Of a DNA stretch of 35,217 nucleotides, positions 9,538 through 35,217 are shown piece by piece (the stretch's first letter is position 1; each line of letters begins with the position of its first letter). The position numbers were made by a program, and so were the translations under genes. The stretch lies in contig JAQCLG010000018.1 in NCBI GenBank assembly GCA_027592745.1, positions 1-35,217 on the forward strand, given 5' to 3'. Source of the stretch: Pseudomonadota bacterium (GTDB lineage Bacteria; Pseudomonadota; Alphaproteobacteria; SP197). The notes under the pieces were generated by a model that saw only the letters and a list, made by a program, of their open reading frames with translations, made no database searches and had not been told where the DNA came from.

Positions 9538-9585
9538 GACTCTCTCAATGCACTGGGGCAGTTGCCCGGTTTGCCGGTTCCCCGG

Positions 9586-9732: not shown

Positions 9733-9765
9733 GGACAAAGGAACGTGTGCGGGCGTTCACCACGC

Positions 9766-10773: not shown

Positions 10774-10874
10774 GATCCCGTTCCTTTGCCGTTGTCGCCG
10801 CGCGGCACGATCCGCTCCAGCCCGTTTCGGCGCGATTTTACCGATTTGGCCCGCCGATGAAAGCCGTGCGGGCC

Positions 10875-16772: not shown

Positions 16773-16804
16773 AACCTGCCGCGGGGTGCGCTACCTCCGC
16801 GGCC

Positions 16805-19395: not shown

Positions 19396-19442
19396 CGAGG
19401 CCTCCCGAGCCTCTACAAGGGGGGCGCAACCGGGAGACCACC

Positions 19443-20792: not shown

Positions 20793-21590
20793 ATGGCTTT
20801 GGCCGCAGAGGCGGTGGCGCGGAATCCGGCGCTTGTGGCGAGGGACATCCACAAGGCGTTCGGATCCGTCGAGGTGTTGAAGGGCGTCTCGCTGACCGCA
20901 CAGGAAGGCGACGTGATCGCCATGCTGGGCGCCAGCGGCTCGGGCAAGAGCACCTTCCTGCGCTGCATCAACCTGCTCGAGATCCCCAATTCCGGCGAGG
21001 TCCTGGTCGGCGGCGAACTGATCGCCATGACGAAGAACCGGCGCGGCGAGACCGTGCCGGCCGACAGCAAGCAGGTCGACCGCATCCGCTCGCGCCTCGG
21101 CATGGTCTTCCAGTCGTTCAACCTGTGGTCCCACATGACGGTGTTGCAGAACGTCATCGAGGCGCCGATCCACGTGCTGAAGAAATCCCGCGCCGAGGTG
21201 CTGGAGGTCGCGCACGCCACGCTGGAGAAGGTCGGCCTGGCCGACCGCGCCGACTACTACCCCGCCCATCTCTCGGGCGGCCAGCAGCAGCGCGCGGCGA
21301 TCGCGCGGGCTCTGGCGATGGAGCCCGACGTGATGCTGTTCGACGAACCGACCAGCGCGCTCGATCCCGAACTGGTCGGCGAGGTGCTGCGCGTGATGCG
21401 CCAGCTTGCCGACGAGGGCCGCACCATGATCGTGGTGACCCACGAGATCGGCTTTGCGCGTGAGGTCTCCAGCGATGTCATCTTCCTGCACGAGGGCAGG
21501 ATCGAGGTTCAGGGGCCGCCGGACGCGATGTTCGGCAACCCCGATTCGGAGCGTTTCCGGCAGTTCCTGGCGAGCAATCTCACCACCTGA
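20793..21590 (+). CDS. Polar amino acid ABC transporter ATP-binding protein (HisP/GlnQ-like)
   Basis: 265 aa. Walker A is GASGSGKST, then [15 protein letters not shown], the Q-loop [18 protein letters not shown], signature LSGGQQQR, Walker [21 protein letters not shown] and the switch His in VVTHEIGFA. The ~20-residue insertion before the Q-loop ([19 protein letters not shown]) is typical of HisP/OccP-type ATPases for basic amino acids and opines. GGGGGAG precedes the ATG. The 105-bp gap upstream has no gene and could hold an internal promoter. It works with the binding protein and two permeases that follow. Confidence 0.95.
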
Positions 21591-21618
21591 ACGCCGGGCG
21601 CGCCCGAACGGACGAGGA

Positions 21619-21634
21619 GAGCCCTTCCGGGCTC
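21619..21634 (+). other. Small intercistronic hairpin before the binding protein gene
   Basis: GAGCCC-TTCC-GGGCTC forms a perfect 6-bp stem with a UUCC loop just upstream of the AGGGAG ribosome site of the binding protein gene. It lacks a T-tract, so it is more likely an mRNA-stability or processing stem than a terminator. Confidence 0.4.
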
Positions 21635-21653
21635 GCAACAAGGGAGTGGAACC

Positions 21654-22445
21654 ATGAAGAAACTGTTCGCTGCCGCATTCGCACTTGCCGTCACCGGTCT
21701 GTTCGCCCAGCAGGCGAGTGCCCAGGACGTCGTGCGCATCGGCACAGAGGGCGCCTATCCTCCGTTCAACTACATCGACGAGAACGGCGACCTGCAGGGC
21801 TTCGACGTCGACATCGCCAAGGCGCTGTGCGACGCCGCAGGCTTCACCTGCGAATTCGTCGTGCAGGACTGGGATGGCATCATCCCCGGCCTGCTGGCCG
21901 AGAAGTACGATGCGATCATCGCCTCGATGTCGATCACAGCCGAACGTGCCGAGGTCGTCGCCTTCACCGGGAAGTACTACAACACGCCGGCGAAGTTCAT
22001 CGCGTCCGCCGATTTCATGACCGAGATTCCGGTCGACACGGCCGCGGCCAACGCCGCGCTCAACGGCATGAAGGTCGGCGTGCAGCGCGCGACGATCCAC
22101 GAGAACTTCATCACGGACAACTTCCCCGACGTCGACCTGAAGAGCTACGCGACCCAGGACGAGGCCAATCTCGACCTCGCCAACGGCCGCGTCGATCTCG
22201 TGCTCGCCGATTCCGTGGCGCTCGACGAGGGTTTCCTGCAGACCGACATGGGCCAGGGCTTCAAGTTCGTGGGGCCGGACTATTCGGACCCGCGCTGGTT
22301 CGGCGACGGTGCCGGCATCGCCGTGCGCCAGGAGGACACGGACCTGAAGGATGCGCTCAATGCGGCGCTGGCGCAGATCCTGGCCGACGGCACCTACAAG
22401 ACGATCAACGACAAGTACTTCGACTTCAACGTCTACGGCGAGTGA
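21654..22445 (+). CDS. Lysine/arginine/ornithine-type periplasmic binding protein (family 3)
   Basis: 263 aa. It has a signal peptide MKKLFAAAFALAVTG with probable cleavage after ASA before QDV. The mature start RIGTEGAYPPFNYIDENG and the segments GFDVDIAKALC, DWDGIIPGLL, IIASMSITAERAEVVAFTGKYY and LADGTYKTINDKYF are hallmarks of the HisJ/ArgT/OccT family. Glu in TEGAYPPF and Asp in the binding region favour a cationic amino acid, but ligand identity is an inference. The preceding hairpin and the strong hairpin after it (22466) are the usual means of giving the binding protein more transcript than the membrane parts. Confidence 0.93.
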   Translation: MKKLFAAAFALAVTGLFAQQASAQDVVRIGTEGAYPPFNYIDENGDLQGFDVDIAKALCDAAGFTCEFVVQDWDGIIPGLLAEKYDAIIASMSITAERAEVVAFTGKYYNTPAKFIASADFMTEIPVDTAAANAALNGMKVGVQRATIHENFITDNFPDVDLKSYATQDEANLDLANGRVDLVLADSVALDEGFLQTDMGQGFKFVGPDYSDPRWFGDGAGIAVRQEDTDLKDALNAALAQILADGTYKTINDKYFDFNVYGE

Positions 22446-22465
22446 GCCTGACGTGACCTGAGAAC

Positions 22466-22513
22466 GGGGCGTCGCGCGCCGCCGGCAACGGCGGACGCGG
22501 CGCCCCTCTCGTT
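22466..22513 (+). terminator. Intercistronic hairpin/attenuator after the binding protein gene
   Basis: GGGGCG...CCGCCG (from 22466) pairs with CGGCGG...CGCCCC (to ~22505) around GCAA, followed by TCTCGTTT. The imperfect stem of roughly 18 bp plus T-rich tail lies between the binding protein and permease genes. It probably causes partial termination or protects the upstream mRNA. The rest of the 87-bp gap holds only the ribosome site CGGGAG. Confidence 0.6.
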
Positions 22514-22532
22514 TCCCGCCCGGGAGTTGCCG

Positions 22533-23222
22533 ATGTTCGACCTGAAGGGCTACGGCTGGATGCTCTGGGAAGGGCTCGCCATGACCCTGACCGTGGGTGC
22601 CTGCGCCCTGCTGCTGGCGGTCGTCATGGGCCTGCTGGGCGCCTGGGGCAAGCTGGCGCGCAATCCCGCCGCCAGGCTGGCGGCCAGCACCTACACCACC
22701 GTGATCCGCGGCATTCCCGAACTGCTGCTCCTGCTCATCGTCTTCTACGGCACCCCGACCCTGCTGCAGAAGCTGGCCGAAACCATGGGCCACGACATCC
22801 GGGTCGACTTCAACGCCTTCACCGCCGGCGTGATGACCCTGGGGTTCATCTACGGCGCCTTTGCCACGGAGGTCTTCCGCGGCGCCTTCCTGGCGGTACC
22901 GCGCGGCCAGGTCGAGGCGGCCTATGCCTGCGGCATGTCCAGGGCACTCGCCTTCCGCCGCGTCATGCTGCCCCAGATCTGGCGCTTCGCCCTGCCCGGC
23001 CTCGGCAACGTCTGGATGGTGCTGATCAAGGCGACGGCGCTGGTCTCGGTGATCCAGCTCGACGACCTGATGCGCAAGTCCTTCATCGCAATGGGCGTGA
23101 CCAAGCTTCCCTTCGACTTCTTCTTCGTCGCGGCGATGATGTACCTCGGCATCACGGCGGTCTCGATGATCGGCCAGCAGCAGATCGAACGCTGGGCCAA
23201 CCGCGGCGTCCAGAGGGCCTGA
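22533..23222 (+). CDS. Polar amino acid ABC transporter permease (HisQ-like)
   Basis: 229 aa. CGGGAG at 22521-22526 supports ATG 22533 over a TTG six bases upstream. It has about five membrane helices and the family signatures YTTVIRGIPELLLLLIVFYG near the N-terminus and EVFRGAFLAVPRGQVEAAYACGMS (the EAA coupling loop), then LPGLGNVWMVLIKATALVSVI. It forms the inner-membrane pore with the following gene, which starts three bases after its stop. Confidence 0.95.
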   Translation: MFDLKGYGWMLWEGLAMTLTVGACALLLAVVMGLLGAWGKLARNPAARLAASTYTTVIRGIPELLLLLIVFYGTPTLLQKLAETMGHDIRVDFNAFTAGVMTLGFIYGAFATEVFRGAFLAVPRGQVEAAYACGMSRALAFRRVMLPQIWRFALPGLGNVWMVLIKATALVSVIQLDDLMRKSFIAMGVTKLPFDFFFVAAMMYLGITAVSMIGQQQIERWANRGVQRA

Positions 23223-23225
23223 ACG

Positions 23226-23960
23226 ATGGACACCCAGGTCATCATCGACAGCTTCCCCGCCCTGCTCGACGGCCTCTGGCTGACCGTCGAGATCACGGTC
23301 TATGCCCTGCTGATCGGCTTCTGCCTTGCCACCGCGGTCGCCATGATGCGGGTCTCGCGCAACATCCTCCTGCGCGCGCCGGTGATCGCCTACATCTTCT
23401 TCTTCCGCGGCACGCCGCTGCTGGTGCAGATCTTCCTGATCTACTACGGCAGCGGCCAGTTCCGCGCGGAGCTGACGCAGATCGGCCTGTGGCACCTGTT
23501 CCGCGAGCCCTATTTCTGCGCCCTGCTGACGCTGGTGCTCAACACCGGGGCCTACAGCGCCGAGATCTTCCGCGGCGCCATCCAGGCCGTGCCCCACGGC
23601 GAGGTCGAGGCGGCGCGCGCCTGCGGCATGTCGGGCTGGCTGCTCTACCGCCGCATCATCCTGCCCAAGGCGATGCGCCTGGCCCTGCCGGCCTATTCCA
23701 ACGAGGTCATCCAGCTCTTCCAGTCGACCTCGCTGGTCTCGATCATCACGCTGATGGACCTGACGGGCGTGGCGCGCACCATCGTGGCGCGCACCTTCGA
23801 CGTCTACGAGATCTACATCACGGCGGGTCTGCTGTACCTGGCCGTGACCTATGGCGTGTTGTGGGTCTTCCGGCTGGTCGAGCATCGACTCTCGGGCCAC
23901 CTGCGCGAACGCGAGGATCCGGCTGCAGCCGTGCGCGACGCCCTGCGGGCCCGCGCCTGA
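23226..23960 (+). CDS. Polar amino acid ABC transporter permease (HisM-like)
   Basis: 244 aa. Signatures include FFFRGTPLLVQIFLIYYG, NTGAYSAEIFRGAIQAVPHGEVEAARACGMS (EAA loop) and LPAYSNEVIQLFQSTSLVSIITLMDLTGVAR. The phrase GSGQFRAELTQIGLW...FREPYFCA matches HisM/OccM-like permeases for basic amino acids and opines. It completes the ABC importer. The sulfatase gene follows after ten bases. Confidence 0.95.
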   Translation: MDTQVIIDSFPALLDGLWLTVEITVYALLIGFCLATAVAMMRVSRNILLRAPVIAYIFFFRGTPLLVQIFLIYYGSGQFRAELTQIGLWHLFREPYFCALLTLVLNTGAYSAEIFRGAIQAVPHGEVEAARACGMSGWLLYRRIILPKAMRLALPAYSNEVIQLFQSTSLVSIITLMDLTGVARTIVARTFDVYEIYITAGLLYLAVTYGVLWVFRLVEHRLSGHLREREDPAAAVRDALRARA

Positions 23961-23970
23961 GGAGAACGCC

Positions 23971-25404
23971 ATGGACGGATGCAACGTGCTGGTCATCGTC
24001 TCGGACGAACACGCCCGCGACATGGCCGGCTTCCACGGCAGCGACGTCGCGCTGACACCCAACCTCGACGTGCTGGCGGCGCGCGGCACGGTGTTCAACC
24101 GGGCCTACACGCCCTCGCCGATCTGCGTGCCCGCACGCGCCAGCCTGGCGACCGGGCGCTGGGTCCACGACACCGGCTTCTGGTCGAACGCGCAGCCCTA
24201 CGACGGCAGCGTGGAGGGCTGGGGCCACCGCCTGATCGAGAACGGCCGGCGGAGCGTCTCGATCGGCAAGCTGCACTACCGCTCGGCAGAGGACGACAAC
24301 GGCTTCGACGAGGAGATCGTGCCGCTGCACGTCAAGGGCGGCCTGGGCTGGACCCGCGGCCTGCTCGGGCGCGACGGCTCGCCCTGGGGAGCAGCGGCGC
24401 ATTTTGCCGAGGAGATCGGGCCGGGCCTGTGCGACTACAACCGCTACGACATGCGCGTGCAGCGCGAGACCGTCGACTGGCTGACCCGGGTGGCGCCCGG
24501 ACTCGACAGGCCGTGGACGCTCTACGCCTCGTTCGTCTCCCCGCATTACCCGCTGATCGTGCCGCAGGAATTCTACGATCTCTATCCGCTGGACCGGCTG
24601 GAGCCGCCGCGCCTCAACACACCCGGCGAGATGGCAAGGAACCCGGTGGTCGCGGCGATGCGCGCCTACATGAACTACGACGACTACTTCGACGATCACA
24701 CGCGGCTGGTCGCCAAGGCGAGTTACCTCGGGCTGGTCTCCTTCCTCGACCGCCAGATCGGCACCGTGCTGGCCGCACTGGAGGCGAGCGGCCAGCTGGA
24801 GAACACGCTGATCGTCTATACCAGCGACCACGGCGACTGCGTCGGCAACCACGGCATCTGGACCAAGTGCTGCATGTTCGAGGAATCGGCGGCGATCCCC
24901 ATGGTGGTCGCCGGTCCGGGCGTGCCGGCGGGCCAGGTCATCGACGACGAGCAGGTCTCGCTCGTCGACATCCACGCCACGGTGCTGGAAGCCTCCGGCC
25001 TGGGGCTGTCGCAGGCCGACCGCGCCCTGCCCAGCCGCGACCTCGTCGCCATCGCCAACGGAGCACGCCACGGGCGTTGCGTGCTCAGCGAATACCACGA
25101 CGGCGGTTCGATCACCGGCATGTTCATGGTCCGCGTCGGCGACTGGAAGTACAACGCCTACCCCGGCTATCCGCCCGAACTCTACGACCTGGCGAACGAC
25201 CCGCACGAGGCCCGTGACCTTGGCGAAAGCCCGGACCATGCCGGGGTGCGCGCGCTGTGCGCAGCGAAGCTGGCCGAGATCTGCGACGTCGAAGCGGTGA
25301 ATGCCCGGGCCTTCGCCAACCAGGAGGCCAAGATCGCGCAACTGGGCGGCCGCCAGGCGATCCTCGACAGCCCCAACTTCGACTTCACGCCGATCCCGGG
25401 CTGA
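23971..25404 (+). CDS. Type I sulfatase (choline-sulfatase / alkaline-phosphatase superfamily-like)
   Basis: 477 aa with GGAGAA upstream. It has the formylglycine motif C-V-P-A-R at Cys52-Arg56 (PICVPARASLATGR), so an FGE-type maturase is needed. Metal ligands lie in VSDEHARD (Asp12) near the N-terminus and in TSDHGD. IGKLHYRS carries the conserved Lys and His of sulfatases. No signal peptide is seen, which fits cytoplasmic choline-sulfatase or phosphonate monoester hydrolase relatives. It is the last gene of the oxygenase/decarboxylase/ABC operon and would remove a sulfate (or phosphonate) ester from an imported or produced compound. Confidence 0.88.
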   Translation: MDGCNVLVIVSDEHARDMAGFHGSDVALTPNLDVLAARGTVFNRAYTPSPICVPARASLATGRWVHDTGFWSNAQPYDGSVEGWGHRLIENGRRSVSIGKLHYRSAEDDNGFDEEIVPLHVKGGLGWTRGLLGRDGSPWGAAAHFAEEIGPGLCDYNRYDMRVQRETVDWLTRVAPGLDRPWTLYASFVSPHYPLIVPQEFYDLYPLDRLEPPRLNTPGEMARNPVVAAMRAYMNYDDYFDDHTRLVAKASYLGLVSFLDRQIGTVLAALEASGQLENTLIVYTSDHGDCVGNHGIWTKCCMFEESAAIPMVVAGPGVPAGQVIDDEQVSLVDIHATVLEASGLGLSQADRALPSRDLVAIANGARHGRCVLSEYHDGGSITGMFMVRVGDWKYNAYPGYPPELYDLANDPHEARDLGESPDHAGVRALCAAKLAEICDVEAVNARAFANQEAKIAQLGGRQAILDSPNFDFTPIPG

Positions 25405-25526: not shown

Positions 25527-26273
25527 TCAGTAGGTCGCGCGGCCGCCGGAGATGTCGTAGACGCCGCCGGTGGAGAAGCTGCAGTCCTCGCTGGAGAGCC
25601 AGGCGACCAGGGCGGCGACCTCGTCGGGCTGGCCGAGGCGACCCATGGGAATCTTGGCCGTCATGTAGTCGAGCTGGGCGGGGGTGACCTGGTCGACCAT
25701 GGGCGTCTCGATGACCGCGGGGCAGACGCAGTTGGCGAGCACGCCGGTGCCAACCAGTTCCTTTCCGAGCGACTTGGTGAATCCGATCAGGCCGGCCTTC
25801 GAGGCGCTGTAGGCCGAGGCGTTGGGGTTGCCCTCCTTGCCTGCGACCGAGGCGATGTTGACGATGCGGCCCCAGCCCGAGGCGATCATGGCGGAGGCCA
25901 GGGCGCGGCAGACGAGGAACTGGCCGGTCAGGTTGATCTCGATCATGCGGCGCCAGGCCGCGACGTCGACCTGCCAGACCGGCTGGCCGCTGCCGCCGAT
26001 GCCGGCGCTGTTGACGAGGATCTGCACCGGGCCCGAGGCGGCTGCCAGGGAGGCGGCAGCGGCGATGGCGTTCTCGTCGGTGATGTCGAGGACCTGGGCG
26101 CTGGCCCCCTGCCCCAGCGTGGCGACCGCGGCGTCCAGCCCGGCGGCATCGCGGTCCCACAAGATGGTGCGGGCGCCGGCCTCAAGCAGGCGGCGGGCAC
26201 AGGCCAGGCCGATGCCGCTGGCGCCGCCGGTCACCACCGCCGTGCGTCCCGTGAAGTCGTAGACTGCCGCCAT
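25527..26273 (-). CDS. Short-chain dehydrogenase/reductase (FabG-like)
   Basis: 248 aa, with ATG 26273 preferred (GGGGG upstream). The cofactor motif is TGGASGIGLA, then NSAGIGG, the catalytic Ser of NIASVAG, and Tyr/Lys of YSASK. The C-terminus FSTGGVYDISGGRATY is a normal SDR ending, and an acidic WDRD after beta-2 suggests NAD preference. It probably oxidises or reduces a hydroxy/keto metabolite. It is monocistronic on the minus strand, convergent with the sulfatase and divergent from the binding protein at 26343. Confidence 0.88.
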   Translation of the reverse strand: MAAVYDFTGRTAVVTGGASGIGLACARRLLEAGARTILWDRDAAGLDAAVATLGQGASAQVLDITDENAIAAAASLAAASGPVQILVNSAGIGGSGQPVWQVDVAAWRRMIEINLTGQFLVCRALASAMIASGWGRIVNIASVAGKEGNPNASAYSASKAGLIGFTKSLGKELVGTGVLANCVCPAVIETPMVDQVTPAQLDYMTAKIPMGRLGQPDEVAALVAWLSSEDCSFSTGGVYDISGGRATY

Positions 26274-26342
26274 CGTGTCCCCCCGTTGCCATGCCTGCCA
26301 TCCCGGCGGTGCCATCATAGCCGCGCAGGGCTAGGATGGGCC

Positions 26343-27095
26343 ATGCGCCTCTACGCCACGATGCTGACGATCCTGCTGCTTGCGGCCCGCGGCGCCGCGG
26401 GCGAAGAAGCGCTTGTCGTCGCCGGCACCGGCGGCCAGGCGCCCCTGGCGGAACTTCAGGGCGACGGCACGATCGGCGGGCTGGAGGCCGACCTGATCGG
26501 CGCGCTGTGCGACCGGCTCGCCCGGACATGCACGATGACGGTGGCGCCGTCGTGGGGCGACCTCGTCTCCGGCCTGCGCGGGGGCCGTTATGCCATCGGC
26601 TACGGCGGGCTGTCGCAAGGCACGCTGGCGGGCCTGGGCATCGCGGCCAGCACAACCTACCTGCCGCTGCGCGCACAATGGGCGGTGATCGCGCACTTGG
26701 ACGGCGCCGCCGACCCGCTGGCGCAGGAGGACACGCGGATCGGCGTGATCCGCGGCACGCCCCATGCCCACTGGCTGGAGGCGCGCCTGCCGCAGGAACG
26801 CCTGCTGCGTTTTGCCGACGAGGAGGAGATGTTCCTGTCGCTCCACACCGGCACGGTCGATGCCGTGTTCGGCGACGGCCTGCTGCTCTGGCGCGACCTG
26901 CTGCAGGGTCCCCTGGGCAAAGGCGTGGTGCTGCGCGGCCCGGGCCAGGCGGTGGAGCAGGACGGCCTGGTGCTTGCCCTGCGCGACGATGCCGCATTCG
27001 GCGAGGTGGTCGACGGGGCCCTGGCGGCGATGGCATGGGACGGCACGCTGGCGGACCTGGTGGCGCGCCACCTGCCCGGCCTGCCGCTGCCCTGA
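26343..27095 (+). CDS. Orphan periplasmic binding protein, family 3-like
   Basis: 250 aa. It has a signal peptide (LYATMLTILLLAARGAAG, cleavage near GAAG/EE). The mature part follows the extracellular solute-binding protein family 3 pattern: GGLEADLIGALCDRL, DLVSGLRGGRYAIGYGGLS in place of the usual 'xSIT' segment, IGVIRGTPHAHWLE and DAVFGDGLLLWRDLL. Conservation to amino-acid binders is moderate and the ligand-contact motifs look altered. No permease or ATPase adjoins it; it could feed the importer at 20793-23960 or act as a sensor-type binder. Its end lies 10 bp from the convergent deacylase gene, with no terminator between them. Confidence 0.75.
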   Translation: MRLYATMLTILLLAARGAAGEEALVVAGTGGQAPLAELQGDGTIGGLEADLIGALCDRLARTCTMTVAPSWGDLVSGLRGGRYAIGYGGLSQGTLAGLGIAASTTYLPLRAQWAVIAHLDGAADPLAQEDTRIGVIRGTPHAHWLEARLPQERLLRFADEEEMFLSLHTGTVDAVFGDGLLLWRDLLQGPLGKGVVLRGPGQAVEQDGLVLALRDDAAFGEVVDGALAAMAWDGTLADLVARHLPGLPLP

Positions 27096-27105
27096 CACGG
27101 CCCGT

Positions 27106-28233
27106 TCAGTCGCCCAGCAGGTTGGCCCGCTGGTCCGCGACCGGCTCGCGGCCCGCGACATGGCAGACCGTATCGCCCTGCCAGAGGAAACGGCGGTCGG
27201 CCAGTTCGTGGACCAGGCCGGCGGTCGGGCTGAAGACCAGGGTGCGGGCGTCAGCGGCGGCGGGCGCGGCGGGATCGACGATCTCGGCAACGACATCGCC
27301 GCGCGCCACGACATCGCCCAGGGCGACGCGGAAGGTGACGATGCCGGTCGCCGGCGCCTCGATGAATCCCACCGCCTCCAGGGGCAGCGCCTCGCCCGCG
27401 TGCTGCGGCAGCGGGCCGGGGTCGCCGGCCACGACGCCGCGGCGGCGCAGGAAACGCATGATGGCGGCGGCGTCGGCAGCAGCGGCAGCATCGTCGACGT
27501 CGGCAAAACCCCGCAGCTCGACGGTGGCGGCCAGGCAGGCATCGGGGATTGCCTTGCCGGGATGGCGCTCCTGCAGCGTGCGCCAGACCACGGTGCAGGC
27601 ATGGTCGAAGGCAAGGCCGCTGCCGGTGCCGTTCTCGAGCAGCGTGAGGGCGCAGCCGAGATCGGCATGGAGATCGGCGGCCTGCGGCCACAGGGCGGCA
27701 TCGACAAAGAGATGCAGCAGGGCGCGCTGGGCACAGTGCAGGTCGAGCACGATGTCGGCATCACAGGCGAGGCCGAGCAGGGCGGCCTTGAGCAGCGAAC
27801 CCTCGCGCGCCATGCGCAGGCCGGCCAGGGCCTCGGCCATGGCCTCGCGCACGATCGCGACATTGGTGCGGGCGTCGCTGCCCAGCCCCTCGCCCACAGC
27901 CTCGTCGACCGCGTCGGAAAGATCGGGCATGGCGCGGTTGAAGTTGACGCCGCTGTCGAGGTCGTGGCGCCCCAGGTGATGGCCCTGGATACGCTGGGCA
28001 AGGCCCACCGGGTTGGCGAAGGGCACCAGCACGACCTCGCCGGGGATATCGGCATCCGAGAGCCGGGCGAGCAGGTGGTGGGCAACCAGCAGGGCCGGCG
28101 TCTCGCCGGCATGGATCGCGGCCTGGACATAGGCCTTCGGCCCCTCGCCCCGGCCGAAGCGGTGCACCAGCAGTTCGCGCTGCGTGCCCGGCAAGGGACA
28201 ATCCAGCGCGATGCGCTCGATGCGATGGCTCAT
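27106..28233 (-). CDS. Succinylglutamate desuccinylase/aspartoacylase-family deacylase (paralogue C)
   Basis: 375 aa. The zinc site is His41 and Glu44 (AAIHAGETPA) plus the His of DLHCAQRALLHL, and the catalytic Glu is in ATVELRG. NFNRAMPDL is another family block. The C-terminal ~90 residues are a beta-rich lipoyl/biotinyl-like domain (IEAPATGIVTFRVALGDVVARGDVVAEIVD), as in DoeB-type enzymes. Such enzymes hydrolyse N-acyl amino acids; DoeB removes acetyl from N-acetyl-2,4-diaminobutyrate in ectoine breakdown. It is last in a minus-strand operon of three paralogues, overlapping the previous gene by ATGA. Exact acyl substrate unknown. Confidence 0.85.
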   Translation of the reverse strand: MSHRIERIALDCPLPGTQRELLVHRFGRGEGPKAYVQAAIHAGETPALLVAHHLLARLSDADIPGEVVLVPFANPVGLAQRIQGHHLGRHDLDSGVNFNRAMPDLSDAVDEAVGEGLGSDARTNVAIVREAMAEALAGLRMAREGSLLKAALLGLACDADIVLDLHCAQRALLHLFVDAALWPQAADLHADLGCALTLLENGTGSGLAFDHACTVVWRTLQERHPGKAIPDACLAATVELRGFADVDDAAAAADAAAIMRFLRRRGVVAGDPGPLPQHAGEALPLEAVGFIEAPATGIVTFRVALGDVVARGDVVAEIVDPAAPAAADARTLVFSPTAGLVHELADRRFLWQGDTVCHVAGREPVADQRANLLGD

Positions 28234-29339
28234 GACCCGGACTCGTGGAACAGGTCGCCGGCGATGGCGCAGAAGTACTGGCCCTGGCGCGTGAAGCGGT
28301 GGCTGCGGCGGGCATAGAGCAGGCCGTCGACGGGCGCGACGACCGGCGTGCGCCGGCGGGTCTGCGGATCGACGATGTGGCAGAAGGTCTCGCCCTCGGC
28401 GACCCGGTCGCCCAGCTCGCGGTGATAGACCAGGATGCCGAAGGTCTCCCCGAACATGCGCCAGAGGCCCTTGCTGGAGCGCGCCCGGCAGCGCTCCGGC
28501 GGCAGGGCGCCGGGATGGCCGGCGACGACGCCGCGGCGCTGCAGGAAGTGGAACAGGGCATCGGCGTCGGGCCGCGTCAGGTGGTCGTCGACGTCGCGCT
28601 GGCCACGCAGTTCGACGACGGCCGCCATCGCCCCGGGCGGCACGGGCAGGTCGGGATGGGCCCGCGCCACCGCCTTCCAGACCAGGACATGGGCCGACTT
28701 GAAGGTCACCATGCGGTTGCCGCGGTCGACCAGCACGACCTCCGCGCCGATCTGGCGGGCGAGGTCCTGCGCATCGGGCCAGTTGTTGTCGCTGACCAGA
28801 AGGTGGAGCAGCGCCTCCCAGGCCGAATGCAGGTCGAGCACGATGTCGGCATCGAGCGAGAGGCCGAGCAGGGTCGCCTTGAGCACCTCGGGTTCGCGCG
28901 TGTCGTTGCGCGCCTCCAGGGCCTGCGCCATCGCCGTGCGCACGGCCGCAACATTGGCCGCGGCGTCTTGCCCCAGCCTGCCCGCGACGCGTTCGAGCAC
29001 ACCCTCGACCAGGTCGGGGAAGCCGCGGTTGTAGTTGCGGTTGGTATCGAGGTCGTAGCGCCCCTGGGCCTCCATCAGGACCTGCTGGGCAAGGCCGATG
29101 GGGTTGGCGAAGGGCACGACGACGATCTCGCCCGTCACCTGGCCGGCGGCATCGGCCTCGGCGAGGCGGTCGAGCAGGTGTTCGAGCACGACGATGCCGG
29201 GCAGTTCGGCGGCATGCAGCCCGGCGTGGAGATAGGCCTTGGGCCGGGCGCCCGGCGTGCCGAAGCGGTGGACGAGCAGGTGCCGGGCGGTGCCCAGGCT
29301 GGCGGCCGGCAGGTCGATGCGTTGCGTGACGTGGACCAC
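28230..29339 (-). CDS. Succinylglutamate desuccinylase/aspartoacylase-family deacylase (paralogue B)
   Basis: 369 aa, GTG start with GAGG five bases upstream. Zinc ligands are His42 and Glu45 (LHAAELPG) and the His of DLHSAWEALLHL, with catalytic Glu in VVELRG. NRNYNRGFPDL matches the family's arginine/asparagine substrate block. The C-terminal domain has the same lipoyl-like fold but differs from its neighbours (RMFGETFGILVYHRELGDRVAEGETF). Its zinc and catalytic residues are intact. It begins seven bases after paralogue A. The differing substrate-pocket segments (LLHLLVSDNNW versus LLHLFVDAALW) suggest distinct acyl groups or amines for each copy. Confidence 0.85.
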   Translation of the reverse strand: MVHVTQRIDLPAASLGTARHLLVHRFGTPGARPKAYLHAGLHAAELPGIVVLEHLLDRLAEADAAGQVTGEIVVVPFANPIGLAQQVLMEAQGRYDLDTNRNYNRGFPDLVEGVLERVAGRLGQDAAANVAAVRTAMAQALEARNDTREPEVLKATLLGLSLDADIVLDLHSAWEALLHLLVSDNNWPDAQDLARQIGAEVVLVDRGNRMVTFKSAHVLVWKAVARAHPDLPVPPGAMAAVVELRGQRDVDDHLTRPDADALFHFLQRRGVVAGHPGALPPERCRARSSKGLWRMFGETFGILVYHRELGDRVAEGETFCHIVDPQTRRRTPVVAPVDGLLYARRSHRFTRQGQYFCAIAGDLFHESGS

Positions 29340-29346
29340 GCTCGCC

Positions 29347-30486
29347 TCAGTGGTCGATCACGGGAAGGTCGGGCGGCGGCAGGGCATGGTCGCCCGCGAC
29401 CACCGCGAAACTCTGGCCGGGCCGGACCAGCAGCGAGAGGTTGCGGCCATAGACGATACCCTCGGTGCGGCTGGCGACCGGCGTGCGCGCCGCCGCGAAA
29501 TCAACGACCGCGGGGTCGACGATGTCGGCGACGACCTCGCCGGCCTTCACCCGCTCGCCCAGGGCGACGCGGTAGGAGATCACCCCGGCGCAGGGCGCGA
29601 CCATGGTGTCGGAACCTTCCAGCGGCGTCGGGCTGCACAGCGGTTCGGGCGGCGAGCCGGGATCGCCCGCGACAAAACCGTGGCGCTGCAGGAAACGCAG
29701 GATGGCGCGGGCATCGGGTTCGGCCATGGCATCGCTGCAGTCCTGCTGGCCGCGCAGCTCCAGGGTCGTGGTGAAGGGCGGTGGCGGCACGGGGCGGTCG
29801 GGGAAACGCGCGGCGAGGTCGTGCATCAGGACGGTCGCCACGGCATCGAAGGTCGAACCCTCGTCGGTAGGGAAGAACAGCACGACGCGGCAGCCCAGCT
29901 CGGCGGTGAGATCGCCATAGGCCTGCCAGTGGGCCTGCGGGAAATAGGCGTATTGCACCGCCGCACCGTGGCAGTGCAGGTCGAAGATCATGTCGGCGTC
30001 GATCGAGAGCGCCATCAGCGCCTTGCGCAGGACGTTGGCCTCGCCCTCGGCGTCCCAGTCGGCGACCGCCTCGCGCGCGGCTGCGCGGATCGTCGCCCGG
30101 TTCTCCTCGAGATCGTCGCCCAGGCGGTTGCCGACCTTCTCGGCGACCTTGTCGGCAAGGCGGGGATACCAGCGGTTGAAGTTGCCGTCGCCGTCGAGAT
30201 CGTAGCGGCCCAGGTGATAGCCGTGGATACGGTTGGCCAGGCCCACGGGATTGGCATAGGGCAGCACCGTGATGTCGGCCAGCACCTCGCCGCGCGCGTC
30301 GGCGGCCGCGAGCCAGCCGATCAGGTGGTTGAGCACCAGGGTGCCGGGCAGCTCGTCGGCATGGAGGGCGGCCTGGAAGTAAAGCTTGCGCCCGACGCCG
30401 CGCGTGCCGAAGCGGTGGACCGTCAGCGCCCGGCTGGTGCCCGGCCCCGGCGCCATCAGCGGTATCGTCTCGACCTCGTGCGGCAT
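29347..30486 (-). CDS. Succinylglutamate desuccinylase/aspartoacylase-family deacylase (paralogue A)
   Basis: 379 aa. ATG 30486 is chosen because GGAG lies five bases upstream; a GTG six bases earlier would leave no spacing. Zinc ligands are His42 and Glu45 (LHADELPG) and the His of DLHCHGAAVQY, with catalytic Glu in TLELRG. DGNFNRWYP matches the DoeB/AstE substrate-binding block. The C-terminal lipoyl-like domain reads VAPCAGVISYRVALGERVKAGEVVADIVD. It is the first and longest of three tandem copies and is preceded by the small cupin gene at 51 bp. Confidence 0.86.
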   Translation of the reverse strand: MPHEVETIPLMAPGPGTSRALTVHRFGTRGVGRKLYFQAALHADELPGTLVLNHLIGWLAAADARGEVLADITVLPYANPVGLANRIHGYHLGRYDLDGDGNFNRWYPRLADKVAEKVGNRLGDDLEENRATIRAAAREAVADWDAEGEANVLRKALMALSIDADMIFDLHCHGAAVQYAYFPQAHWQAYGDLTAELGCRVVLFFPTDEGSTFDAVATVLMHDLAARFPDRPVPPPPFTTTLELRGQQDCSDAMAEPDARAILRFLQRHGFVAGDPGSPPEPLCSPTPLEGSDTMVAPCAGVISYRVALGERVKAGEVVADIVDPAVVDFAAARTPVASRTEGIVYGRNLSLLVRPGQSFAVVAGDHALPPPDLPVIDH

Positions 30487-30537
30487 GGTCACTCCAACTG
30501 TCCCTGGGCCACCTTGTCGGAGGCGCAGGGAGGGGAG

Positions 30538-30885
30538 TCAAGCCGGGCCGCCCTGGCCTCCGACCGCGACGTAGTCGTAAACGCCGACCCCCTGGACGAT
30601 CAGGAAACGGCAGGCCGAGCCATCCAGGCCATGGACAAAGTGAGCGGTCATGGGCGCGACCGCGCAACGCCCTCCAGGCAGAAGCCTGTGCACGGCACGG
30701 GGAGCCCGTGTCTCGACCACCAGTTCGCCCTCCAGGCAGACAAAGCTGTCGGTGATCTCGCTGTGATAATGCCAGGGCACCGACTGGCCTGGCCCCAGGG
30801 TCAGGATAGAGACCATGAGGTCGGCGCCCTCGGCGACGGTCTCGGTTCCGTCGATCTCGTAGTCGCCCTGGTTCTTCAGCTCCAT
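30538..30885 (-). CDS. Small single-domain cupin
   Basis: 115 aa with AGGAG just upstream. Cupin motif 1 is PGQSVPWHYHSEITDSFVCLEGEL, with metal-type His39 and His41; motif 2 includes PMTAHFVHG with His82/His85. It is one beta-barrel and is not of the EctC type seen on the opposite strand. Such cupins can be metal-dependent dioxygenases, isomerases or ligand-binding proteins; nothing here decides. It leads the minus-strand deacylase operon and is divergent from the EctC-like operon, which points to a shared pathway. Confidence 0.78.
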   Translation of the reverse strand: MELKNQGDYEIDGTETVAEGADLMVSILTLGPGQSVPWHYHSEITDSFVCLEGELVVETRAPRAVHRLLPGGRCAVAPMTAHFVHGLDGSACRFLIVQGVGVYDYVAVGGQGGPA

Positions 30886-30993
30886 CGCAGGCTCCTCGCA
30901 AAAGGGGATCGATGCCGGGCACCATCTTGCGCCCCTTGCGGCGACCTGTAAGGTGCGCTGTCATGCGATGCACGCAAAAGGGAACCAGAACGC
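30886..30993. promoter_or_regulatory. Divergent intergenic region between the cupin/deacylase and EctC-like operons
   Basis: This 108-bp gap must hold promoters for both operons. It contains ribosome sites at each end (AGGAG for minus, AAAGGGAA for plus) and GTGCGCTGTCATGCGATGCAC near 30952-30972, an imperfect palindrome (GTGC...GCAC) that could be an operator. No convincing -35/-10 pair is visible. Confidence 0.4.
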
Positions 30994-31848
30994 ATGCTCG
31001 TGATCACCCCCCAGGATATCGCCGGAACCGGACGCGACCGCATGGTCGGCGACGGCAGCGCCCACGCCATGTGCTACCTGGCGGAGGAGGACGGCTGCGG
31101 CTTTTCCTTCTCGACGCTGGAGATTGCGGGCGGCAGCAAGGGTTTTCCCCTGCACTACCGCAACCACATCGAGGTCAACCTCGTGCTGGAGGGCAAGGGC
31201 GAGATTCACAACCTGGAGACCGACGAGCGCTGGCCGGCCTCCCCGGGCACGCTCTATGTCATCGGTCCGGCCGACCGCCACGAGGTGGCGCTGAAGGGCG
31301 ACGTCAAGGTCGTCTCGCTCTTCAACCCGCCGATCAAGGGCAACGAACACCACCAGGACTTCGGCGGCTATCCGCCTTCGGGCGAGATTCCCGCAGCCTG
31401 GGGTCCGGCCGGCGGCAGCCCGACCAGCCGGCGCATGTTCGTCAAGCAGCTTGCCGACATCCCGGTGGTAACGCTCGGCGGCGGCCGGGCCGAGGCGCGG
31501 CGCTACCTGACCAGGGCTGACGATGTCGGCATGACGCTCTCGGACCTGCGGGCCCAGCCCGGCGGCGAGGCGACGCTGTGGTACAAGAACCACGTCGAGG
31601 CCAACTTTGTCGTCTCGGGCAAGGGCGAAGTGACCGAATTGGCGACCGGCAAGACTTGGCCTCTGGTGCCGGGCACGCTCTATGTCGTCGGGCCCAAGGA
31701 CCGCCACCGCGTGACCAACACGGACGGCCTGCACATCCTGTCGATCTTCAACCCGCCCCTTGTCGGCGGCGAGACCCACGACGCCGACGGCGCGTACCCG
31801 CCGACGGGGGAGATTCCCGAGGCGTGGCGCCGAAGGACACGGACATGA
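30994..31848 (+). CDS. Tandem two-domain EctC-like (ectoine synthase-like) cupin 1
   Basis: 284 aa formed by two EctC-like domains (~1-130 and ~145-280). Each ends with the EctC-like FNPPxxGxExHxxxGxYPPxGEIP. In ectoine synthase iron is bound by Glu57, Tyr85 and His93; here domain 1 has Glu60, Tyr88, His96 and domain 2 has Glu202, Tyr230, His238, so the spacing 28/8 is exactly kept in both. LWYKNHVEANF and LHYRNHIEVNL match the EctC metal helix region. The conserved substrate Trp of EctC (GNWxSxR) is missing, so the substrate should differ from N-gamma-acetyl-diaminobutyrate. It overlaps the DmdA-like gene by ATGA. Confidence 0.85.
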   Translation: MLVITPQDIAGTGRDRMVGDGSAHAMCYLAEEDGCGFSFSTLEIAGGSKGFPLHYRNHIEVNLVLEGKGEIHNLETDERWPASPGTLYVIGPADRHEVALKGDVKVVSLFNPPIKGNEHHQDFGGYPPSGEIPAAWGPAGGSPTSRRMFVKQLADIPVVTLGGGRAEARRYLTRADDVGMTLSDLRAQPGGEATLWYKNHVEANFVVSGKGEVTELATGKTWPLVPGTLYVVGPKDRHRVTNTDGLHILSIFNPPLVGGETHDADGAYPPTGEIPEAWRRRTRT

Positions 31849-33029
31849 CCAGCCAAACCGCCGGACATCCCGCCCGCACCAGCCGGGGCCGCAGCCTGCC
31901 GGTGCGGCCCTGGCGGTTCGGGCGGCTGCGGGCCTCGCCCTTCATTCCGTTCTACGAGGAGCGGATCGGGCCCAACGCCTCGTTCTCGGTTTACAGCGGG
32001 CACATGGCGCCGGGCTATCTCGACGAGGACGTCGAGGCCGAATACGCCAACCTGCGTGCGGCGGCGACGCTGTTCGACGTGCCCGAACACGCCATCGAGT
32101 TCGTCGGCCCCGATGCCGCGCGTTTCCTCGACCACCTGATGACCCGGCGCATCGCGCGCATGAAGGTCGGGCGCTGCGGCTACGGGCTGATGTGCTACGA
32201 CGACGGCGGCGTGCTGATGGACGGCGTGCTGATCCGCCTGGCCGACGACCACTTCCGCTACGTGCTGGCCGACGGTGAAATCTTCGGCTGGCTGCGCGCA
32301 CACCAGAAGGGCTTCGACGTGCGCATCGTCGACACCGAGGACTGGGTGCTGCAGGTCCAGGGCCCCAGGGCGCTCGACGTGCTGGCCGACCTGTGCGACG
32401 GCGGCGCGCCCGAGCCCTTCCCCTATTTCTCCTCGGCGCGGGTCACCATGGCGCGCCAGCCGCTGCTGATCACGCGCACCGGCTGGACGGGCGAACTGGG
32501 ATTCGAGATCTACGTGCCCGAGAGCGCCGACCACGCCGCCCTGTGGCGCCACCTGATGGCCGCGGGCACGCCCCACGGCATGCGCTTTGCCGGCATGGCG
32601 TGCATGGACATCCGGCGCATCGAGGCGGGCATCCTCGACAACGGCACCGACATGGACCCGACGATGACCCCCTATGCCGCGGGCATCGGCGGTTTCGTCG
32701 ACCTGTCCAAGGAGGCGTTCATCGGCCGCGAGGCGCTGGAACAGGCCGACCGCCGTCCGCGGCTGGTGGGATTGAAGGCACAGGGCGCCATCAAGGCCGG
32801 CATGGCGCTGACGGTCGACGGGCAGGCAGTGGGGCGGCTCACGGCGGCGGCCCATTCGCCCTTCCTGGGCCACCACATCGCCTATGCCCGCTTCGAGGAA
32901 GCCGGCGACTGGATCGGCCGCCGGGTCGCCTGCGGGCCGGACGGCGTGTCGGGCGAGACGGTCGCCCTGCCCTTCCATGATCCCGACAAGCTGATCCCGC
33001 GCGGCAAGGCGCGCGCCGAGAGCTCGTGA
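31845..33029 (+). CDS. GcvT/DmdA-like tetrahydrofolate-dependent aminomethyl- or demethyl-transferase
   Basis: 394 aa, overlapping the preceding EctC-like stop. The first ~30 residues are basic and low in complexity, then a complete GcvT fold follows: VYSGHMAP, YANLRAAATLFDVPEHAIEFVGPDAARFL, GRCGYGLMCYDDGGVLMDGVLIRL (Asp126), VQGPRALDVL, RTGWTGELGFEIYVP, and a C-terminal barrel with GLKAQGAIKAGM and AAHSPFLGHHIAYA. The GRCGY block and layout are closer to DMSP demethylase DmdA and dimethylglycine/sarcosine-type folate domains than to glycine-cleavage GcvT. No other glycine-cleavage genes are near. It probably moves a methyl or methylene group to THF from a substrate handled by the EctC-like proteins. 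Confidence 0.85.
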   Translation: MTSQTAGHPARTSRGRSLPVRPWRFGRLRASPFIPFYEERIGPNASFSVYSGHMAPGYLDEDVEAEYANLRAAATLFDVPEHAIEFVGPDAARFLDHLMTRRIARMKVGRCGYGLMCYDDGGVLMDGVLIRLADDHFRYVLADGEIFGWLRAHQKGFDVRIVDTEDWVLQVQGPRALDVLADLCDGGAPEPFPYFSSARVTMARQPLLITRTGWTGELGFEIYVPESADHAALWRHLMAAGTPHGMRFAGMACMDIRRIEAGILDNGTDMDPTMTPYAAGIGGFVDLSKEAFIGREALEQADRRPRLVGLKAQGAIKAGMALTVDGQAVGRLTAAAHSPFLGHHIAYARFEEAGDWIGRRVACGPDGVSGETVALPFHDPDKLIPRGKARAESS

Positions 33030-33086
33030 CGCAGGGTGCCACGGCTCCTATCCTGCCTGCGGAATTGCAACGCACAAGGGGACGGC

Positions 33087-33899
33087 ATGTTCTATCGCAG
33101 GATCGGGGAGCAGAACGGGGTGTCGATCGCGCACGGCACCGCCTCGGCGGCGCGGCCGCTGACGCGGCGTGACGGGCTGGGCTTTTCGCTTTCGGTGGTG
33201 ACGGCCCCGGCGGGCGCAACGCACGAACTCTGGTACCAGAACCACTGGGAGGCCAACTACGTCATGGAGGGGCGCCTGCGCCTGGAGCAGGTCGCGACCG
33301 GGCGCAGCTGGGAGATCGAGGCCGGCGACCTCTACTGCGTCGGGCCGAAAGACCGGCACACGCTGACCTCCCACACGCCCTACCGGGTGATGAGCGCCTT
33401 CAACCCGCCGATCGAGGGCAACGAGACCCACGACGCCGAGGGCGGCTACCCGCCGACCGGGCCGCTGCCGGAAGGCCAGGCGGAGATGTTCGTGCGCCGG
33501 CCCGCGGACCTGGAAGCGATGGGGCGGGCCAAGGTGACCCCGAGCGGGGCGCGCCTGCGGCGCTACCTGCTGGCGCAGGACAGGCTGGGCGTCACATGGT
33601 CGGACGTGCACTTCGCCGACGGCTCGGCCTCGAAGCTCTGGTACAAGAACCACTGGGAAGCCAACTACGTCTTCGAGGGCGACGGCACGCTGGAACACCA
33701 CGGCACGGGCGAGGTGCTGCAGCTTGAGCCGGGCATGCTGTACTGCGTCGGCCCGGACGATCCGCATACGCTGACCGCCGGTACGGGGCTGCATATCGTC
33801 AGCCTCTTCAACCCGCCGCTCACCGGTACCGAGGTCCACGACGCCGACGGCGCCTATCCGCCGACCGGTCCGCTGCCTCCGGGTCCGGGCAAGGCCTGA
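33087..33899 (+). CDS. Tandem two-domain EctC-like cupin 2
   Basis: 270 aa; ATG 33087 is chosen for its AAGGGG ribosome site. Two EctC-like domains, both with the full iron triad at the right spacing: Glu55-Tyr83-His91 and Glu191-Tyr219-His227. Domain 2 carries the most EctC-like C-terminal block, LTGTEVHDADGAYPPTGP; Glu and His of EVH are substrate-site residues in EctC. DGLGFSLS in domain 1 matches the DGxGFSxH segment of EctC. It lies 57 bp after the DmdA-like gene on the same strand, and the next gene follows after three bases. Confidence 0.85.
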   Translation: MFYRRIGEQNGVSIAHGTASAARPLTRRDGLGFSLSVVTAPAGATHELWYQNHWEANYVMEGRLRLEQVATGRSWEIEAGDLYCVGPKDRHTLTSHTPYRVMSAFNPPIEGNETHDAEGGYPPTGPLPEGQAEMFVRRPADLEAMGRAKVTPSGARLRRYLLAQDRLGVTWSDVHFADGSASKLWYKNHWEANYVFEGDGTLEHHGTGEVLQLEPGMLYCVGPDDPHTLTAGTGLHIVSLFNPPLTGTEVHDADGAYPPTGPLPPGPGKA

Positions 33900-33902
33900 G
33901 CC

Positions 33903-34715
33903 ATGAAGGTCATCCGGTCCGCCGACCTGATCGGCACGGCGCGCGAGTCGACCTTTGGCGCGGGCGCCCGCGCGCTGATCTACCTGACGGAGCAGGACGG
34001 CACCGGCTTCAGCGTGGCGACCGTGCACTCGGGCGAGGCGCTCGAGAGCGGCCCGCTGCACTACCCGCACCACGTCAAGGCCAACTACGTGCTGGAGGGC
34101 GCAGGCGAGATCGCCGGCGAGGACGGGCGGGTCTGGCCGCTGGCGCCCGGCTCGTTCTACGTGGTGGGCCCCGATGATCGTTACCGCCTGCGGCTGGAGG
34201 GGCCGTGGACGACCTTCTCCATCTTCACGCCCGCGCTGACCCTGGAGCGGGGCGTCGACGGCGGTTTCGCCGCATCCGGCCCCCTGCCCGCGGGCTGGGG
34301 CAACGGCGGGCGGCGCATGTTCGTGCGCGGCATGGCCGACTACGAGCGCAAGCAGCTGAGCACCGGCCATTCCAGCGTCCACCGCCCCCTGCTGGCGGGC
34401 GACGGCATCGGCCTGTCGCTCTCGGACCTGACGACGCAGGCCGGCGCCAGCATCGACCTGTGGTACCGCCACCATGTCGAGGCCAACTATCTGGTCGAGG
34501 GATCGGCCGAAATCCTCGACAAGGCAAGCGGACAGAGCCACGCGCTGGTGCCTGGCGACATGTTCGTGATCGGGCCGAAGGACAAACACCGCGTCAGCAA
34601 CACCCATGGCGCCCGCTGGCTCAGCATCTTCAACCCGCCGATTACCGGCAGCGAACGTTACGACAACCTGGGCGGCTACCCGCCGACGGGCGACGTGCCG
34701 CCGGCCTGGCTCTGA
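33903..34715 (+). CDS. Tandem two-domain EctC-like cupin 3, with altered metal sites
   Basis: 270 aa, two EctC-like domains. Domain 1 keeps Tyr86 but has Lys59 where the iron-binding Glu should be (HHVKANY) and Tyr94 in place of His (DDRYRL). Domain 2 keeps Glu193 and His229 but has Phe221 for the ligand Tyr, and its terminal block is SERYDNLGGYPP, with His replaced by Tyr. Both domains are otherwise complete, so this is an intact gene, not a decayed one. It may act as a regulatory or binding partner of the active paralogues or have a different chemistry. It is preceded by cupin 2 (3 bp) and followed by cupin 4 (11 bp). Confidence 0.83.
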   Translation: MKVIRSADLIGTARESTFGAGARALIYLTEQDGTGFSVATVHSGEALESGPLHYPHHVKANYVLEGAGEIAGEDGRVWPLAPGSFYVVGPDDRYRLRLEGPWTTFSIFTPALTLERGVDGGFAASGPLPAGWGNGGRRMFVRGMADYERKQLSTGHSSVHRPLLAGDGIGLSLSDLTTQAGASIDLWYRHHVEANYLVEGSAEILDKASGQSHALVPGDMFVIGPKDKHRVSNTHGARWLSIFNPPITGSERYDNLGGYPPTGDVPPAWL

Positions 34716-34726
34716 AAGGATCATCG

Positions 34727-35143
34727 ATGTTCGCACGCACGCTGAAGGAACTGGCCGGTACACCGCGGCAGAAGGTGCTGTGCGAGGGCAAGACGGTCTC
34801 GACGCGGATGCTGGCAAAGGGCGACGGGCTGGGCTTTTCGCTTTCGGACGTGCGGCTGGCGCCGGGCATGGATTTCACGCTCTGGTACAAGCACCACTGG
34901 GAGGCCAACGTGGTGCTTGCGGGGCGCGGGCGCGTCGAGGACCTGACGACGGGGCAGAGCTGGGTCATGGAGCCGGTCATGATGTATTGCGTCGGCCCGA
35001 ACGATCGCCACGCCATGCATGCAGAGGAGGACCTGCACCTGCTCTCGGTCTTCAACCCGCCGCTGCGGGGCGACGAGATCCACGAAGGCGACGGCACGCT
35101 GGCGGCTTCCGGGCCGATCCCGCCGGGGCCGCAGGGAGGCTGA
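34727..35143 (+). CDS. Single-domain EctC-like cupin 4
   Basis: 138 aa, close to the length of true EctC (about 130 aa), with AAAGGA six bases upstream. The iron triad is Glu59 (HHWEANV), Tyr87 and His95 (NDRHAM), at the EctC spacing. The C-terminal block is LRGDEIHEGDGTLAASGP, keeping the Glu/His pair. The EctC substrate-contact Trp near the N-terminus is absent. It closes the plus-strand operon (30994-35143) and is the likely model for the ancestral single-domain unit that was duplicated and fused upstream. Confidence 0.85.
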   Translation: MFARTLKELAGTPRQKVLCEGKTVSTRMLAKGDGLGFSLSDVRLAPGMDFTLWYKHHWEANVVLAGRGRVEDLTTGQSWVMEPVMMYCVGPNDRHAMHAEEDLHLLSVFNPPLRGDEIHEGDGTLAASGPIPPGPQGG

Positions 35144-35146
35144 GGG

Positions 35147-35217
35147 TGTTGACCTGCCCCCGCTGACTGGTCCGGTTTCAATGTTAGTGCATGGTCGGCT
35201 TTGTCGCCAAGCTGGTT
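35147..35217. mobile_element. Probable end of an insertion sequence, cut by the window
   Basis: Immediately after the last stop, the sequence changes to lower GC (TGTTGACCTGCCCCC... GGTTTCAATGTTAGTGCATGG). The TGACCTGCCCCC plus CCGGTTTCAATGTTAG pattern resembles terminal inverted repeats of IS3-type elements as I remember them. No transposase is in the window, so the call rests on composition and the terminal motif only. Confidence 0.35.

Follow-up and report, generated by a model that had tools for sequence, protein, structure and literature searches.

A 35,217-nucleotide stretch of DNA from an alphaproteobacterium of the lineage SP197 (assembly GCA_027592745.1, contig JAQCLG010000018.1; the window below) is one complete contig of a 3.85-Mb draft genome and ends in an array of genes for proteins that resemble the ectoine synthase EctC. 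Most of these proteins carry two EctC-like domains fused in a single chain. They belong to the EctC fold family, keep its metal site, have lost residues that position its substrate and form a separate clade, and their genes lie in a conserved neighbourhood. Such fused EctC-like proteins probably act on a different amino-acid-like molecule, in a pathway not described so far.

An operon of fused EctC-like genes

The array and the genes divergent from it are arranged as follows.

27106..28233, minus strand: AstE3, AstE/AspA-family zinc deacylase (PF24827, 4.1e-15)
28230..29339, minus strand: AstE2, AstE/AspA-family zinc deacylase, 41% identical to AstE1 (PF24827, 3.5e-19; motifs)
29347..30492, minus strand: AstE1, AstE/AspA-family zinc deacylase with HADE...H and NFNRWYP (PF24827, 4e-15; PDB 8EIN, 8e-61)
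30538..30885, minus strand: small Cupin_2 protein, divergent from the EctC operon and kept in syntenic loci (just below the Cupin_2 cut-off)
30994..31848, plus strand: Ect1, two-domain EctC-like bicupin (PF06339 over the whole protein, 2.7e-59; residue table)
31845..33029, plus strand: GcvT/DmdA-like folate-dependent aminomethyltransferase/demethylase (PF01571, 5.4e-57)
33087..33899, plus strand: Ect2, two-domain EctC-like bicupin, both iron triads complete (PF06339, 1.8e-64; AlphaFold2 model)
33903..34715, plus strand: Ect3, two-domain EctC-like bicupin (PF06339, 1.4e-42; residue table)
34727..35143, plus strand: Ect4, single EctC-like domain, triad complete (PF06339, 1.2e-34; tree; model and PDB search)
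35148..35217, no strand: contig end, insertion sequence (IS)-like repeat of about 70 bp with copies elsewhere in the genome

The plus strand carries seven PF06339 domains between 30994 and 35104, each with an E-value of 9e-15 to 4e-34; all exceed the family cut-off, and the genome has no others. They are spread over four genes as 2+2+2+1, so that the seven domains and three fusions described in an earlier note on this DNA, which was made from the sequence alone, stand. That note had called the four genes consecutive; they do share one operon, but the GcvT/DmdA-like gene (31845-33029) separates the first from the second. With gene starts refined to 31845, 33087 and 34727, Ect1 and the GcvT-like gene overlap by 4 bp (ATGA) and the subsequent gaps measure about 57, 3 and 11 bp, a spacing from which we take the five genes to be one operon.

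A sister species, represented by the metagenome-assembled genome of an uncultured Rhodospirillaceae (G001:C95, CALGGB010000095.1), carries six two-domain genes and thus 12 domains, and here too the demethylase-like gene follows the first two-domain EctC gene. The array is syntenic there and in other genera, and is therefore not a chance arrangement. In the window it may extend further, because the assembly breaks in the IS-like repeat, whose sequence of about 70 bp occurs at 14 further sites in the genome, often at contig ends. Ect4 is a single-domain protein, but its counterpart in the sister species has two domains, and the repeat begins directly after the Ect4 stop.

A family separate from ectoine synthases

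We scanned one genome per species and obtained 77 loci, which together with the window gave 78 for analysis; at least one open reading frame (ORF) with two EctC domains was present in 51 of them. These two-domain loci were found in Alpha- and Gammaproteobacteria, Candidatus Binatia and Chloroflexota. The isolates concerned include Dongia deserti and Taklimakanibacter lacteus, and two loci (L046 and L057) hold four two-domain genes in tandem. No EctC fusion was seen among 26 matches on named plasmids; candidate fusions there were rejected, as the coverage of about 80% in the best nine came from both halves of the query matching one gene.

Each domain was then compared separately with EctCs and orphan EctCs, as the earlier note had suggested, in a tree of 178 domains over 136 columns. 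The EctCs of ectoine operons and the orphan EctCs formed one clade (support 100/99, branch 0.61), and every fused domain fell outside it. Judged by this tree, the fused domains make up a distinct family that includes neither ectoine synthases nor the known orphan EctCs. Their N and C domains were mostly separate (7 changes each, compared with 55 expected for shuffled labels), which suggests a single fusion event, and only suggests it because 136 columns do not settle the deeper order of the tree.

The function of solitary (orphan) EctC proteins stands in print as an open question (PMC5924519, PMC6344544). The orphans resemble the proteins described here in being of EctC type without ectAB, but they have one domain, retain the conserved Trp and group with canonical EctC in our tree, whereas three of the four window genes encode two domains and the Trp is lost from all four. 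We found no account of fused EctC, EctC arrays or this gene association in the open-licence full-text literature. A widespread fused family that has left ectoine chemistry would be a second, larger puzzle beside that of the orphans.

A conserved metal site and lost substrate residues

Residue positions were numbered on the structure of Paenibacillus lautus EctC (PMC6344544). The iron triad E57/Y84/H92 is complete in 124 of the 142 fused domains (65/71 N and 59/71 C) and in five of the seven window domains; the same five have the claimed Glu-Tyr-His spacing of 28 and 8 residues. The exceptions are both domains of Ect3, which read K-Y-Y in the N domain and E-F-H in the C domain. Orthologues of Ect3 in two other genomes are alike, so the defect of the N domain is not a sequencing error. 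Ect1 has both triads (E, Y, H) complete, and a Cys replaces the substrate Arg in its N domain.

Trp21 was found in none of 71 N domains and one of 71 C domains, and Thr40 in none of the 142. Position 38 is mostly Ser, Asn/His38 being mostly replaced, and Cys104 is likewise mostly Ser; Arg25, Tyr52 and Phe106 are mostly retained. All seven window domains lack Trp21, Asn/His38 and Thr40, and the earlier report that the substrate Trp was missing is therefore correct. In the same alignment, Trp21 and Thr40 were retained in 5/5 EctCs from ectoine operons and in 4/4 plasmid EctCs taken as orphans, and published work describes Trp-21 as conserved in 437 operon EctCs and 145 orphans (PMC6344544). In the EctC structure, Trp21 pushes the substrate into place and Thr40 holds the alpha-amino group (PMC6344544). 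The loss of these two residues is the clearest single indication that the fused family has another substrate.

The resemblance to ectoine synthase (PF06339; 5BXX/5BY5 and 5ONM/5ONN/5ONO) thus covers the fold, the Glu-Tyr-His iron ligands and Arg25, Tyr52 and Phe106. The differences are the mostly two fused domains, the replacement of Trp21, Thr40 and Cys104 and mostly of Asn/His38, the separate clade, the lack of ectAB and the several paralogues per operon.

Confident AlphaFold2 models were obtained for the single-domain Ect4 (predicted local distance difference test score (pLDDT) 91.1, predicted template-modelling score (pTM) 0.84) and the two-domain Ect2 (pLDDT 92.7, pTM 0.90). When the Ect4 model was compared with the PDB, the top eight matches were all ectoine synthase, the best having a template-modelling (TM) score of 0.93, a root-mean-square deviation (rmsd) of 1.5 Å and 39% identity (5BY5), and EctC was also the top PDB relative by sequence. 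The predicted single-domain structure thus groups with ectoine synthase, and placement in an unrelated cupin family, the outcome that the earlier note had named as speaking against it, was rejected. Generic bicupins, including (S)-ureidoglycine aminohydrolase, ranked first for the two-domain model because the ranking favours full-length matches. Such proteins (4E2Q, 1SFN) share two cupin barrels per chain, but 4E2Q matched the Ect2 model with a TM score of 0.68, an rmsd of 3.1 Å and only 14% identity, with no family-level sequence relation. EctC functions as a dimer, and the fusion therefore plausibly builds that dimer into a single chain.

An ectoine pathway improbable at the locus

We found no match to ectA in the genome itself, and neither ectA nor ectB above cut-off in 16 genomes of the order; the ectAB genes whose presence beside the window would have spoken against the earlier note were not found. 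The absence of both genes, as originally claimed, is confirmed on this scale, and canonical ectoine synthesis was rejected. Together with the family-wide replacement of substrate residues and the separate clade, it gives good support to the proposal that the product or substrate is not ectoine.

Ordinary ectoine metabolism, in the form of spare ectoine synthases or of ectoine/hydroxyectoine salvage with a nearby DoeB, is accordingly very improbable. The three two-domain proteins do pass the cut-off of the NCBI ectoine synthase model as whole proteins. However, Ect4 stays below it (117.4 against 128 bits), Trp21 and Thr40 are gone, and the deacylases fall far under the DoeB cut-off: against TIGR02994 they scored 35.2, 26.7 and 29.9 bits, with a cut-off of 402.7. 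Their naming as DoeB-like was thus not borne out. A better doeA-doeB-like pair lies elsewhere in the genome (G000:C172:16315-18670; 521/613 and 377/403 bits, just below the curated cut-offs) and is kept in four other genomes (G001, G006, G012 and G013); ectoine catabolism at the window locus was rejected.

Single-domain orphan EctC genes with Trp21 were seen in four loci (L102, L103, L106 and L112), in each preceded within about 90 bp, or overlapped, by an M24-family peptidase-like gene, of the family to which the ectoine hydrolase DoeA belongs. On a Shinella plasmid (L122, 5932-9411), an orphan ectoine synthase gene stands by genes for a formyltetrahydrofolate deformylase and a glycine betaine ATP-binding cassette (ABC) importer, which is another link of EctC-like genes with betaine and one-carbon metabolism. 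On a Rhizobium gallicum plasmid (L121, 1849-6345), an orphan ectC directly follows genes for a phosphopantetheine-binding protein and an adenylate-forming enzyme, a context that suggests a specialised-metabolite setting.

Deacylases and demethylase

The divergent cupin and three AstE-like deacylases are present as first described: all three deacylases have the AstE/AspA catalytic domain and keep complete zinc motifs (HxxE...H and NxNRxxP). They share PF24827, the HxxE...H zinc motif and NxNR with DoeB/EutE and AstE/AspA deacylases, and differ from DoeB in lying far under its equivalog cut-off and in occurring as tandem pairs or triplets in the order of the window genome. Their closest PDB entry by sequence is 8EIN, for which we found no paper in the open-licence literature. 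AstE3 is limited to the genus of the window among the loci seen.

The GcvT/DmdA-like protein matched both PF01571 and PF08669, and so shares with DmdA, GcvT and trimethylamine N-oxide (TMAO) demethylase the aminomethyltransferase folate-binding fold and C-terminal barrel. It scored 164 bits against the DmdA model NF009133 (cut-off 410) and remained below the cut-offs of the TMAO demethylase, dimethylsulfoniopropionate (DMSP) demethylase and GcvT models. As it falls below every equivalog cut-off, it is a distinct member.

The conserved neighbourhood

The sister species has kept the cluster over its full 33 kb. The shared order begins with a CocE hydrolase, dipeptide-type ABC genes, TenA, DgcA, DgcN, a hydrolase and the binding protein of a tripartite ATP-independent periplasmic (TRAP)-TAXI transporter. 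It continues with a hydrolase, a short-chain dehydrogenase, two HalD-like proteins, a beta-lactamase-like protein and a class V pyridoxal phosphate (PLP) enzyme, and then with the amino-acid ABC importer, sulfatase, short-chain dehydrogenase, three deacylases, cupin and EctC array. The rest of the window thus belongs to the same unit as the array; its genes between the HalD-like pair and the deacylases are listed below.

15085..16772, plus strand: two tandem HalD/BesD-like Fe/2-oxoglutarate proteins, both with HxD ligands (PF23169; sequences)
16805..18241, plus strand: PLP decarboxylase (nearest model L-2,4-diaminobutyrate decarboxylase, 215 bits against a cut-off of 900)
19443..20687, plus strand: cysteine desulfurase-like class V PLP enzyme (TIGR01976), kept together with the decarboxylase
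20793..23960, plus strand: amino-acid ABC importer (ATPase, binding protein, two permeases)
23971..25404, plus strand: sulfatase (nearest choline-sulfatase, 260 bits against a cut-off of 433)
25527..26318, minus strand: short-chain dehydrogenase, kept in the locus
26336..27095, plus strand: short protein without a Pfam match, weakly like an amino-acid solute-binding protein (weak similarity to the solute-binding-protein gene)

The importer binding protein is of the lysine/arginine/ornithine (LAO) type, above cut-off. Since both HalD-like proteins carry HxD, they are of hydroxylase type; a halogenase identity was rejected, and the pair are likely amino-acid hydroxylases. Frame analysis of 16786-20687 resolved a PLP decarboxylase, a beta-lactamase-like protein and a class V PLP enzyme, and the 869-aa and 884-aa ORFs called there by the ORF finder were discarded as wrong-frame composites.

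Among relatives, a Rieske oxygenase gene stands between the deacylase and EctC genes in four loci (L039, L051, L063 and L074) and partly in L040, and directly upstream of a two-domain EctC gene in four more genomes (L048, L052, L058 and L083). The proteins have CxH...CxxH; they share the Rieske motif with the glycine betaine monooxygenase GbcA, their best model, but score far under its cut-off (129-139 against 670 bits). An apparent Rieske member in the window and L038 was rejected as an antisense ORF. Relatives also carry a ProP-like symporter, and in Dongia deserti the two-domain gene is flanked by two demethylase-type genes of the flavin adenine dinucleotide (FAD)-GcvT kind.

We counted neighbours within 5 kb and at 5-10 kb of the 51 two-domain loci, covering the co-occurrence with deacylases and DmdA-like gene that the earlier note had suggested looking for. 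The counts, taken from related genomes and thus not independent trials, were 15 and 3 for Rieske, 8 and 1 for TauD (2-oxoglutarate dioxygenases), 7 and 2 for GcvT, 5 and 2 for FAD oxidase and 7 and 0 for AstE, whose recurrent pair occurs within the order of the window genome. The demethylase and oxygenase context in relatives, which the earlier note had missed, speaks for a methylated substrate that is broken down rather than made.

Proposed function

We tentatively favour, at somewhat less than an even chance, a role in uptake and breakdown, in which the EctC-derived iron bicupins would act on a cyclic amidine or an acylated or methylated amino acid that is not ectoine. An EctC-like ancestor would have undergone domain fusion and tandem duplication to give the four bicupin-type genes, retaining the fold and metal site and losing its hold on N-acetyl-diaminobutyrate. 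A zwitterionic amino-acid derivative would be imported by the LAO-type ABC system or by a ProP-like or TRAP carrier, and methyl groups would be removed by a Rieske oxygenase (in relatives) and the GcvT-type folate-dependent demethylase. The EctC-like step or steps may be a metal-assisted ring closure or opening, with water lost or added at the amide or amidine of a cyclic or N-acylated amino-acid derivative. Acyl removal by the AstE-like zinc enzymes would follow, and lastly decarboxylation and a class V PLP step. Here we infer the catalytic role, the amidine or amide chemistry, the sequence in which the steps follow and that they run towards breakdown. A narrower version, possible but doubtful, has the pathway degrading a methylated cyclic amidine or guanidino-type zwitterion, with each of several bicupins per operon handling a different intermediate and opening or forming rings between oxidative demethylation and zinc-dependent deacylation.

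Several observations weigh against the favoured reading. About 20 of the 51 two-domain loci are without any such neighbour, the neighbour counts come from related genomes and so are not independent, and neither the window nor the sister species has the Rieske gene. One relative (G007), where no fused EctC was found at the threshold applied, still has the deacylase pair together with the decarboxylase, class V enzyme, TRAP carrier and DgcN, so EctC is not essential to that module; the pattern resembles a breakdown module onto which EctC, Rieske and GcvT genes have been added as a peripheral layer. Moreover, the EctC reaction is described as practically irreversible towards ectoine (PMC6344544), and ring opening by the EctC fold would therefore have no precedent there.

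The known closing direction, together with the cyclisation of glutamine as an EctC side reaction, would suit biosynthesis of a novel compatible solute or specialised metabolite. In such a pathway the decarboxylase, hydroxylases and class V PLP enzyme would supply diamino acids with different substituents, and each bicupin would cyclise one of them. The two HxD HalD-like hydroxylases, a decarboxylase nearest to the diaminobutyrate type, the class V enzyme and the several EctC-like copies fit this. We nevertheless consider it unlikely, given that no EctA-like acyltransferase is present, that breakdown is the better match for the import systems, deacylases and demethylases found next to the genes in relatives, and that DgcN and DgcA of D-glutamate catabolism lie within the cluster. 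Lyase chemistry like that of the DMSP lyase DddK, with the cupins cleaving an onium or betaine compound and the GcvT-like protein performing an alternative demethylation as DmdA does for DMSP, appears improbable: the metal set is by sequence the Glu-Tyr-His of EctC, and sequence similarity is to EctC and not to DddK, whose structural match has about 20% identity. Still, DddK ranks with the nearest structures outside EctC for the single-domain model, published work notes it as a structural neighbour of EctC, and the DmdA/GcvT-like gene shares the operon. A similarly slim chance falls to some or all domains being ligand sensors or scaffold proteins, present in many copies for binding and not as enzymes. 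The N domain of Ect3 lacks the metal triad in three orthologues and there are weak matches to AraC-binding and Cupin_2 models, but the triad is kept across most of the fused family and no DNA-binding domain is attached.

Should the catabolic role hold, the EctC fold would have a new reaction and marine and soil bacteria a degradation route for an overlooked nitrogen compound. The candidate partners Rieske, GcvT and AstE narrow the search for the substrate. DgcA and DgcN, at 8554-10860 of the window, are the N-acetyl-D-Glu racemase and the N-acetyltransferase of a route for D-glutamate catabolism; both score above their NCBIfam cut-offs and are kept in the sister species, and DgcN in G007 adjoins the deacylase/decarboxylase module; the AstE-like proteins could be the missing deacetylase of that route. 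Agmatinase-like and urease-like genes flank L063 (the urease called by eye from sequence), agmatinase-like genes also occur in L054, L082 and L114, and a glutamine-synthetase-III gene adjoins L042; with the glutamine cyclisation of EctC, these are weak hints to the substrate.

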